Origin: Candidatus Palauibacter scopulicola
GTDB lineage: Bacteria; Gemmatimonadota; Gemmatimonadetes; Palauibacterales; Palauibacteraceae
Length of the DNA stretch: 64,000 nt
Assembly: GCF_947581915.1 (NCBI RefSeq)
Contig: NZ_CANPWG010000021.1
Coordinates: forward strand, 1 to 64,000
Reading direction: 5' to 3'
Shown here piece after piece: positions 36,287 to 46,676 of this stretch. Made by a program: the position numbers and the translations under genes. The notes under the pieces are model-generated. The model worked only from the letters and a program-made list of their open reading frames with translations. It ran no database searches and was not told where the DNA came from. Within the stretch, counting starts at the first letter, position 1, and each line of letters begins with the position of its first letter.

Positions 36287-38041
36287 ATGATTCGGCTTAC
36301 CGCACCGTGCGCCGCCTTCCTGGTTACGAGCGCCGCCCTCGCGGCGGGCGCCCTCCCCCTCCCGCTTTCCGGCCAGGAATACGACATCCTCATCCGGAAC
36401 GGGCGCGTGATCGACGGCACGGGGGACCCGTGGTTCGAGGCGGACATTGCCGTCGCCGGCGACCGGATCGTGCGGATCGGGAGGCTCGGCGACGCGACGG
36501 CGCGGCGGGTCGTGGACGCGACAGGGATGTACGTCGTGCCGGGGTTCATCGACCTGCACTCGCACGCCGACCGCGCCATGACCTCCGAGCACCTGGAGGC
36601 CCGGCGGGCGAAGAGCCTGAACAGCCAGGGGCTCACGACGGTCATCGGCGGGCCGGACGGCCGCAATCAGTCATGGCCGCTCAGCGCGGAGATCGCGGCT
36701 CTCCGCGAGCTGGGACACGCGATGAACTTCGTCCCCATGGTCGGCCACAGCACGGTGCGCGCCGAAGTGATGGGCAACGACTACTGGCGTGCGGCGACGG
36801 AGGACGAGATCGCCCGCATGCAGGCGCTCGTGCGCGAGGGAATGGAGTCGGGGGCGTGGGGGCTGGGCGCCGGCGTCGAGTACCGCCCCGCCCGCTACAG
36901 CACGCCGGAGGAGGTCATCGCCCTCGCCGGGGCCGTGGCCCCCTACGACGGCTTCTACGTCGCGCACCAGCGCAGCGAGGCGGCCATGCCGCTGTGGGAA
37001 CTGCCGAGCACCGCGACGGAGGGGCCCGTGGACGGGAACGAGGGGCTGGCGGAGACCGTGAACATCGCCCGTGAAACGGGGATCCGCGTCGTGGCGAGCC
37101 ACCACAAGGCGCGGGGCCGCGCCAGCTTCGGCCGCTCCGGGCAGGACACGCTGGTCGTGAACCGGGCGCGCGCGGAGGGGCTGGAAGTCTACCTCGACGT
37201 CTACCCCTACGAGACGTTCGGCGGGGGCGCGCGCCCCATGATCCCGCGCTGGAGCCTGGTGCACGACACCGTGGACACGAGCGGCGGGAGGGACAGCCCG
37301 GTCTACAACCGCCCGGGGGTGTTCGACGATGCCCGGGCGCACCTGGAGCGCCGGTGGGCCGACCCGGAACTCCGGGGCCTCATCGCCCGCGACATCGAGT
37401 GGATCGTGGACCACAACGGGGGGCCGGACCGGGTGGTCGTGGTGGGCTACCCCGACTCGACCTGGGTGGGCCGCACGCTGGAGGAACTGGGGCGCACCTT
37501 GGACATCACGTACCAGGAGGTCGTCGTCCACATGGCGCTCAACGGGTACCCGGAGGTGCTCGGCGGAGCCTGGACGCGCGGCTACGGAATCCACGACTCG
37601 GACGTCATCAACTACTACCGGCAGGACTACACGGCGACGGCGTCGGACGCGGCCGTGAGCGGGGTCGAAGGCGTGCCCGAGTTCGCCTCGCGGCCCGGCG
37701 CGCACCCCCGCCATTTCGGCGCCTTCACGCGCAAGATCGCCCGCTACGTGAAGGACCTGCAGGCGATCACGCTTCCGTTCGCGGTCCGCTCGATGACGGG
37801 GCTGCCAGCGCGGATCATCGGGCTGGAGGATCGCGGCTTCGTCCGCGAAGGGTACCGGGCCGACCTCGTCGTCTTCGACCTCGAGCGGCTCCGGGACCGG
37901 GCCACCGTGCTGGAGCCGGACCGGTTCAGCGAGGGTGTCGACTACGTGATGGTCAACGGCGTGTTCACGGTGGACGCGGGCGAGTTCACCGACGAACTCC
38001 CCGGCGAGGTCATCCTCCGGCCCGGGAACTCCGCGAACTAG
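36287..38041 (+). CDS. Secreted D-aminoacylase-like amidohydrolase
   Basis: A 584-aa amidohydrolase-superfamily protein. After a signal peptide (PCAAFLVTSAALAAGALPL) come the beta-sandwich start YDILIRNGRVIDGTG and the metal motif GFIDLHSHAD. Further features are GPDGRNQSWP, YVAHQRSEA and VVASHHKARG, then a C-terminal FVREGYRADLVVFD. The pattern is of N-acyl-D-amino-acid deacylases and related dihydroorotase-like hydrolases. The ATG at 36287 has a GGGGTG site upstream; the ATG at 36257 would add ten residues before the signal. The precise substrate is not evident. Confidence 0.88.
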   Translation: MIRLTAPCAAFLVTSAALAAGALPLPLSGQEYDILIRNGRVIDGTGDPWFEADIAVAGDRIVRIGRLGDATARRVVDATGMYVVPGFIDLHSHADRAMTSEHLEARRAKSLNSQGLTTVIGGPDGRNQSWPLSAEIAALRELGHAMNFVPMVGHSTVRAEVMGNDYWRAATEDEIARMQALVREGMESGAWGLGAGVEYRPARYSTPEEVIALAGAVAPYDGFYVAHQRSEAAMPLWELPSTATEGPVDGNEGLAETVNIARETGIRVVASHHKARGRASFGRSGQDTLVVNRARAEGLEVYLDVYPYETFGGGARPMIPRWSLVHDTVDTSGGRDSPVYNRPGVFDDARAHLERRWADPELRGLIARDIEWIVDHNGGPDRVVVVGYPDSTWVGRTLEELGRTLDITYQEVVVHMALNGYPEVLGGAWTRGYGIHDSDVINYYRQDYTATASDAAVSGVEGVPEFASRPGAHPRHFGAFTRKIARYVKDLQAITLPFAVRSMTGLPARIIGLEDRGFVREGYRADLVVFDLERLRDRATVLEPDRFSEGVDYVMVNGVFTVDAGEFTDELPGEVILRPGNSAN

Positions 38042-38090
38042 CAGCCCGTGGCAAAAGCCCCGCTGCGTTCGAGCGGGCGAGCCTGAACGC

Positions 38091-38126
38091 TTGACAGGCG
38101 ATATCGACATGGCCAGAATGGCCAGA
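38091..38126 (+). promoter_or_regulatory. Promoter of the Phd/PIN pair with a 9-bp tandem repeat
   Basis: TTGACA (38091-38096) and CAGAAT (38114-38119) form a -35/-10 pair with a 17-bp spacer. The expected transcription start falls on or beside the A of the antitoxin ATG (38126), so the message may be leaderless. The 9-mer ATGGCCAGA is tandemly repeated at 38109-38117 and 38118-38126, covering the -10 and the start, a likely site for autoregulation. Confidence 0.6.
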
Positions 38127-38425
38127 TGAGACGAGCCAGCGTCAGCGAAGCGAAGAACGCCCTCAGCGGGCTCCTGGGCGACGTCCGTCGCGGGGAAGCC
38201 GTGTTGATCACGCATCGCGGAGAGCCCGTGGCGCGAATCGAACCTTGCCGCCCGGACGATCTGGGCGGCGACCATGAAGTCGCGGACCTCGTACGCCGGG
38301 GCGTGGCGACTCCTCCCCGCACTCCCTTCGATGTCGAACGCTTCCTGAGTGTCCCCGCCCCGCGGCTCGCCGAAGGGGTGAGCGCCAGCGACATGATCGT
38401 GGCCGAGCGCGCCGAGGGCCGTTGA
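38126..38425 (+). CDS. Phd/YefM-type antitoxin
   Basis: A 99-aa antitoxin. The N-terminal fold is typical (ASVSEAKNALSGLLGDVRRGE, then VLITHRGEPVARIEP) and the C-terminal part has the toxin-wrapping region with PRTPFDVERFL. Its stop overlaps the TTG of the PIN toxin. No Shine-Dalgarno site precedes the start, in line with a leaderless message. Confidence 0.9.
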   Translation: MRRASVSEAKNALSGLLGDVRRGEAVLITHRGEPVARIEPCRPDDLGGDHEVADLVRRGVATPPRTPFDVERFLSVPAPRLAEGVSASDMIVAERAEGR

Positions 38426-38841
38426 AATACTGGGATTCGTCGGCTCTCGTGACACTTCTCGTGGACGAGGCGGGCAGCGCCGAGCGCCGTGCCACGATCC
38501 GGGACGATCCGGCGATCGTTACGTGGTGGGGAAGCCGCGTCGAATGCGCGTCGGCCCTGAACCGTCTCCACCGGGAGCAGCATTTCGAACCCGGCGGGCT
38601 CGACCGGTCCCTGGAGCGGCTTCGGCGGTTGGCCGCCGGTTGGATAGAGGTCGAGCCTCTCGAACAGGTTCGCAACCGTGCGATCAGACTGCTTCGGCTT
38701 CACCCGCTGCGGGGGGCGGACGCGCTGCAGTTGGCGGCAGCCCTTGCCGCTGCAGCCGAAGATCCGCAGCGGCTCGAGCTGGTCAGCAGCGACCACCGCC
38801 TCTCCAACGCGGCAAGGCGGGAGGGGTTCAGGGTCCTTTGA
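38422..38841 (+). CDS. PIN domain toxin
   Basis: A 139-aa PIN-domain ribonuclease. Acidic residues of the active site are Asp5 (KYWDSSALV), Glu41 (RVECASAL), Asp100 (RGADALQLA) and Asp124 (SSDHRLSNAA). Translation starts at TTG (38422), overlapping the antitoxin stop, so toxin synthesis likely depends on antitoxin translation. It likely cuts a structured RNA when free of antitoxin. Confidence 0.9.
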   Translation: MKYWDSSALVTLLVDEAGSAERRATIRDDPAIVTWWGSRVECASALNRLHREQHFEPGGLDRSLERLRRLAAGWIEVEPLEQVRNRAIRLLRLHPLRGADALQLAAALAAAAEDPQRLELVSSDHRLSNAARREGFRVL

Positions 38842-38865
38842 ACGGGTCGTGACTGAGGACATCGG

Positions 38866-38887
38866 ACAGTGTTAGATCGTACACTGT
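38866..38887. promoter_or_regulatory. Inverted repeat upstream of the quinohemoprotein gene
   Basis: ACAGTGT (38866-38872) and ACACTGT (38881-38887) are perfect 7-bp arms with an 8-bp AT-containing spacer, so the half-site centres are 15 bp apart. It lies 25 nt after the toxin gene and 42 nt before the dehydrogenase ATG. It looks like a dimeric regulator operator for the dehydrogenase. Confidence 0.5.
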
Positions 38888-38929
38888 TCGGTTGAGGTCC
38901 GTACCCCACCCCCGTGACCGGGAGAGACC

Positions 38930-41565: not shown

Positions 41566-42519
41566 CTGAACCCGGGGCGGGGTCCGGTCACCGAGGCAGG
41601 GCCCGTCCGCGGCCCGCGGCCCGATCTCGCCGACGCGCTGGAGCGGGGGGAGATCGTCCTCTTCCCCGTCTGCCCGCTCGAACTCCCGCCGGATGAGGAT
41701 CTCGAGCGGCTGCGGACGGAACTCCCGCGCCAGTTGCGTGCAAAAAACGTCAGCTACCACCCGGAGAGCGGGCGCCTTCGCGGCGTGGCGGCGCGCGGAG
41801 GGCTGCGGGATGCCGTTCTCGACACCCTCACTGCGCACGGCGCCCGGGTTCGCGCCTTCCTCCGGGAGTGCCTGCCCGCGCTCACCGAGGGCTGGACGGT
41901 GGGGACGACAAGCTTCCGCCCGATTCAGGAGCGGGGCCGCGGCCTCTCCCCGCACGCGAGCAACGAACTCATCCACTTCGACGCCGGCGCCTACGGGGCG
42001 ACCGACGGGGACCGGATTCTTCGTTTCTTCGTCAACGTGAACCCGGACGAGGACCGCGTGTGGTGTACGAAGGGGACGTTCCCCGACGTGTTCGCCCTCT
42101 ATGGGACGGAGGCGGGTGTGGCGGACGGCGGCTCGCTCGCGCGGGGCCCCGTGGACCGTCTCCGCGGACGTCTGCTGCGGGGGATCGCGAAGGCGGGGCT
42201 GGGTGAGGCGGTGCTCGCGGACTCCAGCCCGTACGACCGTCTCATGCGGCGCTTCCACAACTACATGAAGGACACGCCGTCCTTCCAGGAGCAGGACGAG
42301 ACGTGGCGGGAGGTCCGCTTCCCGCCCTTCTCCGCCTGGATGGTCCTCACCGACATGGTCAGCCACGCGAGCCTGTCCGGCCAGCACGCCCTCGTCGACA
42401 CCTTCATCCTCCGCCTGGCCGCCTGCCGCCACCCCGACCTCGCCCCCATCAACATCCTCCGCGCCGGACCTCCTCCGAACGCCCGAGGCCCCAACATTCC
42501 TGGCGCGGGACGGCGATGA
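41566..42519 (+). CDS. Kdo hydroxylase-like Fe(II)/2-oxoglutarate oxygenase (KdoO family)
   Basis: A ~317-aa protein in the KdoO family, which adds a hydroxyl to Kdo at C3 in lipopolysaccharide. The iron motif His-x-Asp is in NELIHFDAGAYG, a distal His is likely in DMVSHASLSG, and RFFVNVNPDEDRVW fits the family. The reading frame is open from just after the RidA stop, but the first ATG, GTG or TTG is the TTG at 41734, which would remove the family N-terminus (ALERGEIVLFPVCPLELP). A CTG at 41566 preceded by GAGCGGGGG is the likely start. The stop overlaps the ATG of the DUF429-HIT gene. Confidence 0.75.
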   Translation: MNPGRGPVTEAGPVRGPRPDLADALERGEIVLFPVCPLELPPDEDLERLRTELPRQLRAKNVSYHPESGRLRGVAARGGLRDAVLDTLTAHGARVRAFLRECLPALTEGWTVGTTSFRPIQERGRGLSPHASNELIHFDAGAYGATDGDRILRFFVNVNPDEDRVWCTKGTFPDVFALYGTEAGVADGGSLARGPVDRLRGRLLRGIAKAGLGEAVLADSSPYDRLMRRFHNYMKDTPSFQEQDETWREVRFPPFSAWMVLTDMVSHASLSGQHALVDTFILRLAACRHPDLAPINILRAGPPPNARGPNIPGAGRR

Positions 42520-43715
42520 CCCGCGCCATCGCCGTCGACTGGTCCGGCGCGAAATCGGGGGCGTCGTCGAAGATCTGGCTCGCCGAGGTACGGGACGGAC
42601 GCCTGGCTCGCCTGGAGTCCGGCCGCGACCGCGGCGAATGGATCCGCCATCTGATCGACGACGCGGCGGCGGACTCCGATGTCGTGGTTGGCCTGGATTT
42701 CGGGTTCTCCTTCCCCCTCTGGTTCGCCGAGCACCTGGGCGCGACGTCGATAGAAGAACTTTGGGACATCGTCTCCACCCAGGGAGAAGGATGGCTAAGC
42801 AGCTGCCCGCCCCCGTTCTGGGGAAGACCGGGAAAGGGGAAGCCGAAGCTGCGCCACCATTTTCGGCACACCGAACGAGAGGTGTCCGGGGAGACGGGTT
42901 CGAATCCCAAAAGCGTGTTCCAGATCGGCGGCGGCGGTGCGGTGGGCACCGGCTCGATCCGAGGAATGCCTCACCTGGCCACGCTCCGCGCGGCGGGCTT
43001 CTCGATCTGGCCGTTTCATGAAGTCCGGATGCCACTGGTGATCGAGATCTACCCGCGACTGCTCACGGGCCCGGTGAACAAGTCCGATTTCGATGCGCGG
43101 CAGGCGTATCTGGATCAGGGACTGCCAGAAATAGAGGGCTCACTCGCGTGCAAGGCCATGTCGTCCGAGGACGCCTTCGACGCAGCGGTGTCCGCCGTGG
43201 TCATGGGCCGCCACGTGGACGATATCTCCGCTCTGACCGCAGCTCGAGATGAAACGAAGTTGATGGAAGGGATGATCTGGTGGCCTCGAGAAACCCGGGA
43301 GGCTACCGCCAGTTCGCGTGGTGCCGCCGTCCAAAAGGCCGACTGCCCCTTCTGCGATGTGCCCAGGGAATCCGTGGTTGCCGAGTCGCGGCATGCTCTC
43401 GCGGTCGAGGACCGGTATCCGGTGAGCCGCGGCCACACGCTCGTAGTCCCCAGAGAGCACACGGAGACCTTCTTCGCCCGAAGTGACGAGGTCCAGGCGG
43501 ACATATGGAGCCTCGTCTCCGGCGTGAGGGCAAGGCTTCAAGCGGAACTCAATCCCGACGGCTTCAACGTGGGGATCAACGAGGGGCGGGCGGGCGGCCA
43601 GACCGTGGGGCACGCCCACATACATGTGATCCCCCGCTTCAAGGGAGATGTGGCAGACCCGAGAGGCGGGATTCGCTGGGTCCTGCCCGAGCACGCCGCG
43701 TACTGGGACTCATGA
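42516..43715 (+). CDS. DUF429 (RNase H-like) - HIT domain fusion
   Basis: A 399-aa protein joining two domains. Residues 1-260 look like the DUF429 family, a predicted RNase H-fold nuclease: Asp8 (IAVDWSG), Asp61 (VGLDFGFSFP) and the late acidic helix with Asp219/Asp222 (SEDAFDAAVSAVVMG). Residues ~270-399 are a HIT domain: CPFC (277-280), GHTLVVPREH, and the triad GHAHIHVIPR with His366, His368 and His370. HIT enzymes hydrolyse or transfer nucleotides such as Ap4A or AMP esters. The gene overlaps both neighbours by 4 nt and is coupled to an HNH nuclease, suggesting joint work on nucleic acid or nucleotides. Confidence 0.85.
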   Translation: MTRAIAVDWSGAKSGASSKIWLAEVRDGRLARLESGRDRGEWIRHLIDDAAADSDVVVGLDFGFSFPLWFAEHLGATSIEELWDIVSTQGEGWLSSCPPPFWGRPGKGKPKLRHHFRHTEREVSGETGSNPKSVFQIGGGGAVGTGSIRGMPHLATLRAAGFSIWPFHEVRMPLVIEIYPRLLTGPVNKSDFDARQAYLDQGLPEIEGSLACKAMSSEDAFDAAVSAVVMGRHVDDISALTAARDETKLMEGMIWWPRETREATASSRGAAVQKADCPFCDVPRESVVAESRHALAVEDRYPVSRGHTLVVPREHTETFFARSDEVQADIWSLVSGVRARLQAELNPDGFNVGINEGRAGGQTVGHAHIHVIPRFKGDVADPRGGIRWVLPEHAAYWDS

Positions 43716-44782
43716 ACGCGCCGCGGCCGCCGACGGCCGAAGGGCAGCTCGAGTTTCTCCGGTCGCTCCAGCGCCTGCTCGACGAGGGCAGCTTCACGTC
43801 CAGTTACAAGTTCGCGCTGCTCCATGCCATCGCCGACCTGTGCCTCGTCAAGGGTGACGACAGTGGGGACGAACTTGAACTGTCCACCGCCGACATTGCC
43901 GAGCAGTTCGTGCGGCTGTACTGGCCCCAGGCAATGCCGTACCCCGCCGGCGACAACGCGGGGATCCTGCACCAGAACACGGGCCGACAGGCACTGGTTG
44001 TCCGCGAGTTGGCCGAGCGCCACAACCGCTACCAAGGCTCCCTGGCCGAGCTTGAGAGAAGCCGCCCGGATTGGGACAACCTCCGGCGGAGGGTGGAGCA
44101 GACGGTAAGGAAGATGCCGCTCTGGAAGTTGCAGACGGTCGGGTCGGAACGCCTCGAGTTCCTGTACGAGAACGTCGATAGAGGCGGGTCGGTTCGGCTA
44201 CAATCCGGCGTCGCCTACTGCTTTCGGGTGTTCTATCCGCTGGTCACCGACGTGATCGAGGGAGCCTGGTCCCACTTCGTTCAGCGGCTCAACCCTCAGC
44301 TTCTCGGCCAGGTCGTCGATCTGCGGTCGTTCCTCTTCGGCTCTCAGCGCACCTCGCTTGACTCGTATCGTCCTCTCCTCAGGGCGGTGCAAGGTGGCCG
44401 TTGCTTCTACTGCGAGAGCGACATCAAGTCCGGTGGCGATGTCGACCACTTCATCCCGTGGCGACGATACTCGCTCGACCTGGGACACAACTTCGTATTG
44501 GCCCATCGGGGGTGTAACTCGAGCAAGTCCGACCTGCTCGCGGCGGAAGAGCATCTCGAACGCTGGACGGAACGGAACCGCGTTTGCCGGGACGAACTGG
44601 AGGCCGGCTTCGAGGAGAGCCGGGTCCTCCATGACTGGCGGGCGACGCTTCAGATCGCTCGCTGGGCCTATGGCCAGGTGCAGCGAGCCGGAGGACAGGT
44701 GTGGGTTCAAGCGAACGAGTTGACGCGCCTGTCGGGCGATTGGCGGAGGATACTGACCGCTGTAGACGACGAGGCTGCCTGA
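43712..44782 (+). CDS. HNH endonuclease with helical N-terminal domain
   Basis: A 356-aa protein. The HNH core is at residues ~230-275: Cys231/Cys234 (CFYC), Asp245-His246 (DVDHFIPW), Asn260 (GHNFVLAHRGC), His265 and Cys268, completing the zinc ribbon and the metal site. The N-terminal domain, starting GQLEFLRSLQRLLDEGSF and including YKFALLHAIADLCL, is helical and recurs in HNH proteins from accessory regions. The start overlaps the DUF429-HIT stop, so these two are a translational pair. Codon use is looser than in the flanking dehydrogenase genes. It converges on the gamma-glutamyltransferase gene. Confidence 0.9.
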   Translation: MNAPRPPTAEGQLEFLRSLQRLLDEGSFTSSYKFALLHAIADLCLVKGDDSGDELELSTADIAEQFVRLYWPQAMPYPAGDNAGILHQNTGRQALVVRELAERHNRYQGSLAELERSRPDWDNLRRRVEQTVRKMPLWKLQTVGSERLEFLYENVDRGGSVRLQSGVAYCFRVFYPLVTDVIEGAWSHFVQRLNPQLLGQVVDLRSFLFGSQRTSLDSYRPLLRAVQGGRCFYCESDIKSGGDVDHFIPWRRYSLDLGHNFVLAHRGCNSSKSDLLAAEEHLERWTERNRVCRDELEAGFEESRVLHDWRATLQIARWAYGQVQRAGGQVWVQANELTRLSGDWRRILTAVDDEAA

Positions 44783-44798
44783 TTCGCGTTGACGGGCT

Positions 44799-46676
44799 TT
44801 ACCAGCCGACGGCGTAGGCGACGCGGCGGGGGTCGGCGCCGGCCATGAGGGCGCCGGTCGCGGCATCGTAGGTGATGCCCTGGATGCTGCCGAAGGCATA
44901 ACCGGGGGCGAGTTCCACGGTGTATCCGAGCCCTTCGAGCGTCGCCTTCACGTCTTCGGGCAGGCGATCCTCCAGGCGGAAACGGATTTCGGCTCCGGGG
45001 CGGTAGAAGTTGGGCTCCCCGCTCAGAGTGAAGCGGGGCGTCGCGATCGCCTCCTGTATCGGCATCCCGAAGTCGAGGAGGTTCACGAGCACCTGGAACT
45101 GTGTCTGGCCGATCGTCTCGCCGCCCGGCGTCCCCAGAGCCGCGTGGAACCGACCTTCCCTGAGCACGATGATGGGAGAGTTGTTGAGGATCGGGATCTG
45201 CCCTCCCCGGACGTAGTTCACGTGGTCGGGGTAGGGCGACGTCGAACCGATGCGCGATCCGTTGTTGAAGGTGAGGCCGGTGTTGCCGACCACCACGCCT
45301 GTGCCGAAGGCCCCGCCGTGGGTGGGCGTGGCCGCGACGACGTTGCCGAAGCGGTCCGCGATGGAAAAGCTGGTCGTGCTCCCCGCCTGCGCCTGTTCGG
45401 CCAGGTGTCCCCGCCGTAGCGGGGCCGCGGTCGCTCCCGCCGCCTCTCCCCGGGCGCGCGCGTCCGACTCCAACGCTGCCGCCGACTGGAATTCGTCGAC
45501 CTGCACCGGATTCCCGGCGCCCGGGTACGCCATCACGCGGGACGGGTCGATGAGGGATCGGCGAACCGCCGCGTATTCCTTCGACAGCAACGCGTCGAGG
45601 GGCACGTCGACCAGGGCGGGGTCGGCCGCATAGGTATAGACATCGGCCTTGGCGACCTTGATCGCCTCCGACAGCAGGTGGATGGTCTCCGCGCTCCCGG
45701 CGCCGAGGGCCCGCAGATCGAATCCCTCGACGAGGTTCAACTGCATCGTCACCTCCAACCCTCCGCGCGACGTCGGCGGGCTGGTGTAGATGTCGTATCC
45801 CCGGTACGTCGTGTGGATCGGCTCCGCCCAGATGGGCTCGTAACGGGCGAAGTCCTCCGTGGTGAAGTCGCCTCCGTTCTCCGCATAAAATTGAGCCATC
45901 TCCTCGGCGATGTCGCCCCGGTAGAACCGGTCGAAGGCGGCCTGGAGCGCCTCCGAGCGCGTCCTGCCGGCCGCCAGAGCCGCCTGCTCGGCCTCGACCA
46001 CCTTGCGGAGCGTGTTCGCCAGGTCGGGCATGCGGAACGTTTCGCCGGGCTCCGGCACCCTGCCGCGCGGGAGGAACATCCGCCGGCTGGACGGGAAGCT
46101 CTCGAAGAGCTCCCGGTGAGACTCGATCGCCGCCACCACGGACGCCTCGATGGGGTGGCCGTTCTCGGCGTAGTCGATGGCCGGGGCGAGCACCTGGGCC
46201 AGGCTCATGGTGCCGAAGCGGTCCAGGAGAGCGATCCATCCCCCGAACAGGCCGGGGACGACGCCCGCGTGAATCCCCTTGTTCAACTCGTCGGCCGTGC
46301 GGCTCGCGGGATCGATGGCCAGCGGAGCGGCCCCCGTGGCCCCGAGCGAGTACACGCGATCGGAGACGCGGTCGTAGAGGGTGACGAACCCATTCCCCGC
46401 CATCCCGGACATCTGCGGCCGCACGATGTTAAGCGTGGCCAGGGTCGCGACAGCGGCGTCTGCGGCGTTGCCGCCCGCCATGAGCGTGCGGAGACCCGCA
46501 ATGGACGCCAGAGGATGGCCCGCTGTCACCAGCCCGTTCGGGCCCGGCACCGCCGGACGGTGCGCCGGCCGGTCGGCACGCCCGCCGAAGCTCGCCTGAC
46601 GGGCCGTGGCCTCCGGCGGCAGGAGGAGGAGAGACGCGGCGAACAGGGCGATCATCCGGATCGGGAAGCGTTTCAT
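44799..46676 (-). CDS. ggt: Gamma-glutamyltransferase
   Basis: A 625-aa exported Ntn-hydrolase. The signal peptide IALFAASLLLLPPEA is followed by the large-subunit region (AGGNAADAAVATLATLNIV) and the self-cleavage point at Thr434 in GSTTSFSIAD. The downstream GGETIGQ motif binds the substrate carboxylate. It cleaves gamma-glutamyl compounds such as glutathione in the periplasm. The ATG at 46676 starts the signal peptide; a longer frame to 46910 covers the neighbouring gene in another frame and was rejected. Confidence 0.92.
   Translation of the reverse strand: MKRFPIRMIALFAASLLLLPPEATARQASFGGRADRPAHRPAVPGPNGLVTAGHPLASIAGLRTLMAGGNAADAAVATLATLNIVRPQMSGMAGNGFVTLYDRVSDRVYSLGATGAAPLAIDPASRTADELNKGIHAGVVPGLFGGWIALLDRFGTMSLAQVLAPAIDYAENGHPIEASVVAAIESHRELFESFPSSRRMFLPRGRVPEPGETFRMPDLANTLRKVVEAEQAALAAGRTRSEALQAAFDRFYRGDIAEEMAQFYAENGGDFTTEDFARYEPIWAEPIHTTYRGYDIYTSPPTSRGGLEVTMQLNLVEGFDLRALGAGSAETIHLLSEAIKVAKADVYTYAADPALVDVPLDALLSKEYAAVRRSLIDPSRVMAYPGAGNPVQVDEFQSAAALESDARARGEAAGATAAPLRRGHLAEQAQAGSTTSFSIADRFGNVVAATPTHGGAFGTGVVVGNTGLTFNNGSRIGSTSPYPDHVNYVRGGQIPILNNSPIIVLREGRFHAALGTPGGETIGQTQFQVLVNLLDFGMPIQEAIATPRFTLSGEPNFYRPGAEIRFRLEDRLPEDVKATLEGLGYTVELAPGYAFGSIQGITYDAATGALMAGADPRRVAYAVGW

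Follow-up and report, generated by a model that had tools for sequence, protein, structure and literature searches.

The DUF429–HIT and HNH Genes and Their Insertion Site

The window analyzed here, a 64,000-nucleotide stretch of a Candidatus Palauibacter scopulicola contig, contains two overlapping genes, which the initial annotation described as a fusion of a DUF429 domain to a complete HIT domain, followed by an HNH nuclease. Both open reading frames and their ATGA overlap are confirmed (Table 1). The fusion, the gene order, and the 4-bp overlap, the latter seen in the intact loci inspected, are conserved across genera, and the arrangement is therefore not due to chance.

Table 1. The two genes, their domains, and the insertion site (positions in the window)
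Feature	Position	Strand	Remarks
DUF429–HIT fusion gene	42516-43715	+	399 aa ORF
HNH nuclease gene	43712-44782	+	356 aa ORF; ATGA overlap with DUF429–HIT gene
DUF429-type RNase H-like domain, residues 1-262 of fusion	42516..43301	+	Asp8/Asp61/Glu177/Asp222 invariant
Linker and HIT domain, residues 263-399 of fusion	43302..43715	+	HxHxH at 366/368/370
HNH protein, conserved N-terminal domain, residues 1-200	43712..44311	+	Contains SYKFALLHAIADL motif
HNH catalytic region, residues 231-274	44402..44533	+	CxxC...DH..P(W/F)...HN...CN..K
Inserted cassette, full extent	42466..44800	+	Missing in six congeners, flanks contiguous there
Kdo hydroxylase-like host gene at insertion point	41734..42519	+	PF11004 E=7.7e-54; outside module

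A Kdo hydroxylase-like gene has received the insertion at its 3′ end; its final codons have been replaced, and it now shares ATGA with the DUF429–HIT gene. Six congeners (L174, L176, L177, L179, L180, and L181) have an empty site with 1–52 bp between the flanks, which correspond to window positions of about 42466 and 44786–44801; as the flanks join directly in these congeners, the window holds a clean 2.33-kb insertion of exactly two genes, in keeping with the earlier remark that they are wedged into a metabolic region. The entire cassette is found in four congeners (G000, G259, G292, and G395), and two (L038 and L039) have DUF429 only. The insertion showed neither a target-site duplication nor an integrase. 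The G+C content is 64–66% in the cassette compared with 68–71% in the flanking genes, and dN/dS values of 0.09–0.34 across all three domains indicate a constrained function under purifying selection. At the same chromosomal site, the congener L178 (G053) carries unrelated sequence in place of both the cassette and the gamma-glutamyltransferase-like gene that lies downstream.

The neighbors in the window are metabolic genes and a toxin–antitoxin-like pair, and do not constitute a defense island. On inspection of the sequence, overlapping open reading frames for a Phd/YefM-like antitoxin and a PIN-like toxin are seen at 38126–38841; the stretch 38024–38915 is missing in the congeners L004 and L038 and is thus a variable region too.

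Domain Assignment and Conservation

The fusion protein belongs to the HIT superfamily: It matches PF01230 in Pfam (E=1.8e-20, 73.8 bits vs. a cut-off of 21.5) and carries the H-x-H-x-H motif, the histidines of which (His366, His368, and His370) are invariant in all 12 DUF429–HIT fusions aligned. When the predicted structure of the fusion was compared with the PDB using Foldseek, the best 50 matches were exclusively HIT proteins; among solved structures, the HIT domain is closest to 3imi and, more generally, to bacterial proteins of the HIT/Ap4A type. Aprataxin is absent both from the sequence-search matches listed and from the 50 best fold matches. An alignment of 28 HITs revealed a C-terminal signature common to those with an HNH partner (GD..DPRGGxRWVxP.xAxYW); the HITs of Jeotgalibacillus and Paraburkholderia, where an HNH neighbor was not detected, have a similar tail. 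A HIT of A. baumannii (L143) served as the comparison HIT without an HNH, and the HIT tree was poorly resolved.

The N-terminal 262 residues of the fusion are, as judged by sequence comparison and structure prediction, a divergent DUF429-type RNase H-like domain. PF04250 was not matched by the fusion protein of the window at E<=1, and is found in 5 of 29 relatives (best E=2.8e-4); the comparison with PF04250-type proteins using hhalign was weakly positive (E=1.5e-4, probability 52%). Four acidic residues (Asp8, Asp61, Glu177, and Asp222) are invariant in 29/29 of the sequences aligned. The strand order of the predicted structure (pLDDT 74) fits an RNase H-like fold, and viral ribonuclease H and RuvC proteins match the predicted fold of the fusion at E values of about 0.01–0.04, ranked below the HIT matches. 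Together, these lines of evidence uphold the relationship to DUF429 proposed from the sequence, though the domain in the window is by itself below Pfam detection. It also matches the PADLOC candidate PDC-S44 (E=3.9e-5).

DUF429-type domains were found in 41 of the 395 Gemmatimonadota genomes sampled, either alone or fused to HIT, HD_4, a decarboxylase, or an unmatched C-terminus (L044). Fusions to HD_4, a (p)ppGpp-hydrolase-like type, occur in a sister genus within the same family (L049:9607-10992, L051:3069-4439, and, by homology, L047:3328-4692), and those to a pyridoxal-dependent decarboxylase at L053:8257-10632 (Pfam) and L064:8041-10065 (C-terminus by similarity). In the DUF429 tree the HIT fusions cluster with two congeners in which the HIT and HNH parts have been lost, whereas the HD fusions make up a clade of their own. 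This patchy fusion to other enzymes fits the published fusions of DUF429 to the nucleotide-metabolism domains Nudix and RelA/SpoT (PMC3985635, PMC3153485). The domain resembles DUF429 (PF04250) in its acidic residues, its RuvC-like fold signal, and its fusion to enzymes of nucleotide metabolism, but in the window protein it lies beyond Pfam detection, and its fusion to HIT with an HNH partner was not found described. Viral contigs and phages yielded no relative of the fusion or of the DUF429-type domain, and GTDB contigs only two full-length relatives of the fusion, plus lone HITs.

The HNH protein of the window falls just under the Pfam cut-off for PF01844 (E=0.001, score 19.6 vs. 21.4), whereas two relatives exceed theirs (L142 for PF13395, L182 for PF01844). 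Its membership in the HNH superfamily is supported by the catalytic motif DH...N...N, with Asp245, His246, Asn260, Asn269, and Lys272 invariant in 35/35 HNH proteins aligned. Residues 1–200 matched no known family; the helical character attributed to this N-terminal domain was recovered as a largely helical prediction, but in a model of low confidence (pLDDT 57), and the Foldseek matches of this poor model (cytochromes and others) were discarded.

Distribution of the HIT–HNH Pair

A profile search for the HNH protein identified 24 Gemmatimonadota genomes with strong matches (E<=1e-30), or about 23 independent ones, as G045 and G224 look near-identical. A HIT is encoded adjacent to the HNH in 20 of the 24: 13 have the DUF429–HIT fusion, in one (G318) DUF429 and HIT are encoded by two different genes, and in six a HIT adjoins the HNH without DUF429. 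The remaining four have no adjoining HIT or methyltransferase, and two of these are fragments. It should be noted that the genomes are often metagenome-assembled, with frameshifts in G138, G247, and G161 that are possibly assembly errors.

Phyla other than Gemmatimonadota were surveyed through their plasmids. The pair is present on plasmids of the Betaproteobacteria Polaromonas and Aromatoleum and, in reversed order with the HNH first, on those of the Bacteroidota Hymenobacter and Persicobacter. The fusion is as unusual as first supposed, and the pairing of a HIT with an HNH, far from being unique to this locus, recurs in three phyla; no description of a HIT–HNH pair was found in the open-access literature. 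The distances between HITs and between HNHs are correlated (r=0.856 over 20 pairs, Mantel 0/2000), which partly reflects shared phylogeny. The DUF429-fused HNHs make up a single group of the HNH tree, next to the HIT-only member L131; this group includes one HNH (L130) that has lost its partner. From this grouping, the DUF429 domain is most simply seen as a lineage-specific addition that would have arisen about once. As HIT–HNH pairs without DUF429 exist in three phyla, the domain is inessential to the unit.

Exchange of the Partner Enzyme

Related HNHs pair with a class I methyltransferase of 196–198 amino acids on Acinetobacter and Pseudoalteromonas plasmids and on an IMG/VR contig, and a Roseomonas plasmid encodes the methyltransferase–HNH pair in reversed order. 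This methyltransferase is TehB/Methyltransf_25-like and by inspection has no [DNS]PP[YFW] DNA-methylase motif. It was found together with HIT in none of the loci inspected, and E. coli genomes gave no DNA match to the methyltransferase–HNH pair. On two Paenibacillus plasmids, an NTP pyrophosphohydrolase is encoded within about 20 bp downstream of distant HNHs; this is weaker evidence, since these HNHs are only 24–28% identical. Given the variety of partners, the core unit would be the HNH plus an exchangeable small-molecule or nucleotide enzyme.

This exchange bears on the restriction module proposed in the initial annotation, the outline of which is supported by the defense-type context of relatives elsewhere. 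The swap with a TehB-like methyltransferase without a DNA-methylase motif argues against classical restriction–modification, however, and for a small-molecule or nucleotide role of the partner.

Polaromonas W11N encodes a partner-family methyltransferase joined to a PLD-ResIII protein (L139:5998-7755). A contig from a viral collection (L182:4983-6524) encodes the methyltransferase followed by an HNH that carries a fused Peptidase_S24 domain of the LexA/UmuD type; genes of SOS-peptidase-like and SSB-like proteins lie close by. An SOS-response peptidase adjoins the HIT–HNH pair of Aromatoleum (L081).

Genomic Neighborhoods and Comparison with Known Defense Systems

Relatives on plasmids adjoin CRISPR I-F, BREX, or an AAA ATPase/McrC with type I restriction–modification, and the Hymenobacter HNH–HIT island includes a restriction endonuclease and a NUDIX–helicase pair. 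Directly upstream in L075 are ZacB (E=4e-166) and ZacC (E=0), and two further genes of matching size lie as a pair on the opposite strand; the upstream gene pair of L073 is of the same size and homologous to this ZacB/ZacC pair. A Schlafen group 3 (SLFN-g3) helicase is encoded directly upstream in L076 and nearby in L135 (PDC-S41, E=1.4e-203). A defense role suggested by such neighbors is guilt by association. In the Hymenobacter island (L141:6847-10134), the NUDIX gene lies 10 bp before the gene of a PLD-ResIII-DUF3427 helicase, which resembles SauUSI in domain architecture (PMC3874153).

Neither gene of the cassette was recognized by PADLOC as a named system. The ThsC model of PADLOC matches the HIT of the window (E=1.4e-10); ThsC is the HIT protein of type II Thoeris, for which the synthesis or removal of a nucleotide second messenger has been proposed (PMC8565338). 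In the window, however, the partner is an HNH nuclease, and PADLOC, run on both proteins of the cassette, found no TIR (ThsB) or ThsA, so that the cassette is not a type II Thoeris system. Septu PtuAB also has an HNH effector, and PtuB models weakly match residues 218–280 of the window HNH; the family described here differs in its HIT or methyltransferase partner and its N-terminal domain, and with no PtuA ATPase gene in the cassette, Septu was rejected as well. HNH restriction–modification systems likewise combine a nuclease with a small enzyme, and some relatives have a methyltransferase gene, but one of the TehB/Methyltransf_25-like kind that lacks [DNS]PP[YFW]; the window has no methyltransferase, and type II restriction–modification was rejected for want of a cognate DNA methyltransferase in the cassette.

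Putative Function

We favor the view, held with about as much confidence as doubt, that the pair is a transferable anti-phage or anti-mobile-element module in which the HIT would act as controller of the HNH. The cassette is probably separate from the surrounding metabolic region; since its relatives sit in defense islands of several phyla, a defense module appears more fitting than a metabolic one. The HNH, whose motif is intact, would be the effector and cut nucleic acid. The HIT would be its catalytic controller, a role suggested by analogy and partner exchange: Its histidines are intact, the pairing looks obligate, and it is replaced by another small-molecule enzyme, with the ThsC of type II Thoeris (PMC8565338) as a precedent. 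The methyltransferase, and more weakly the NTP pyrophosphohydrolase, would fill the same control slot in relatives.

It is a tentative extension of this idea that the relatives form a cross-phylum family of nucleotide-gated defense nucleases, with one HNH effector, interchangeable controllers (HIT, TehB-like methyltransferase, and NTP pyrophosphohydrolase), and the Gemmatimonadota DUF429 as an added nuclease or sensor. More doubtful is the proposal, by analogy, that the HIT is an off-switch, which would hydrolyze a nucleotide signal or a nucleotidylated intermediate so that the nuclease of a healthy cell is kept or turned off. The DUF429 domain has retained its acidic residues and may add a second nucleic-acid-binding or cutting function; this is the least certain part, and one dispensable for the core idea, the domain being missing from most branches of the family.

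Other explanations were weighed against this controlled-nuclease module. Two small overlapping genes, in either order and often on plasmids, inserted cleanly without further cargo, could also be an addiction pair, with a host-toxic HNH, the HIT or methyltransferase as enzymatic antitoxin, and plasmid or island maintenance as the main selected role. We consider this rather unlikely, as a solo HNH (G066) and an HNH without HIT or methyltransferase (G013) suggest that the HNH is not in every case lethal by itself, and several relatives lie in defense islands. A modification-dependent (type IV-like) restriction, where foreign DNA would be cleaved by the HNH if modified, and the partner would rid the host pool of modified nucleotides to spare the host's own DNA, would accommodate the fusion of the partner methyltransferase family to a PLD-ResIII protein, the NUDIX gene abutting the SauUSI-like PLD-ResIII-DUF3427 helicase in the Hymenobacter island, and the NTP pyrophosphohydrolase after distant HNHs in two Paenibacillus. 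It nevertheless seems unlikely, with no modified-base reader domain identified in the HNH protein, and HIT enzymes are not known to act as dNTP sanitizers.

Intact HIT catalytic residues fused to a nuclease-fold domain would also suit an aprataxin-like activity, in which nucleic acid would be broken by the HNH and the RNase H-like domain, and the HIT, as the initial annotation proposed, would attach a nucleotide adduct to the broken ends or take one away. This is improbable, as the nearest solved relatives are HIT/Ap4A-type proteins, no aprataxin occurs among the sequence matches or 50 best folds, and such a role is hard to square with the swap for a non-DNA methyltransferase. A metabolic operon, with the fusion and the Kdo hydroxylase encoded upstream of it acting together in envelope metabolism, is suggested by the ATGA overlap of the two reading frames in the window and in L003/L038, but is largely refuted by the empty sites, where congeners retain the Kdo hydroxylase without the cassette, and with unrelated upstream genes in other genera we regard it as barely plausible.

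The HIT–HNH pair gives context to what were two orphan parts, the DUF429 fusion and the standalone HIT enzyme. As a HIT-controlled nuclease module, it would be an undescribed HNH-based defense candidate, at 2.3 kb small enough for direct testing. If HIT and methyltransferase share one slot, the family could show unrelated nucleotide enzymes controlling one nuclease.
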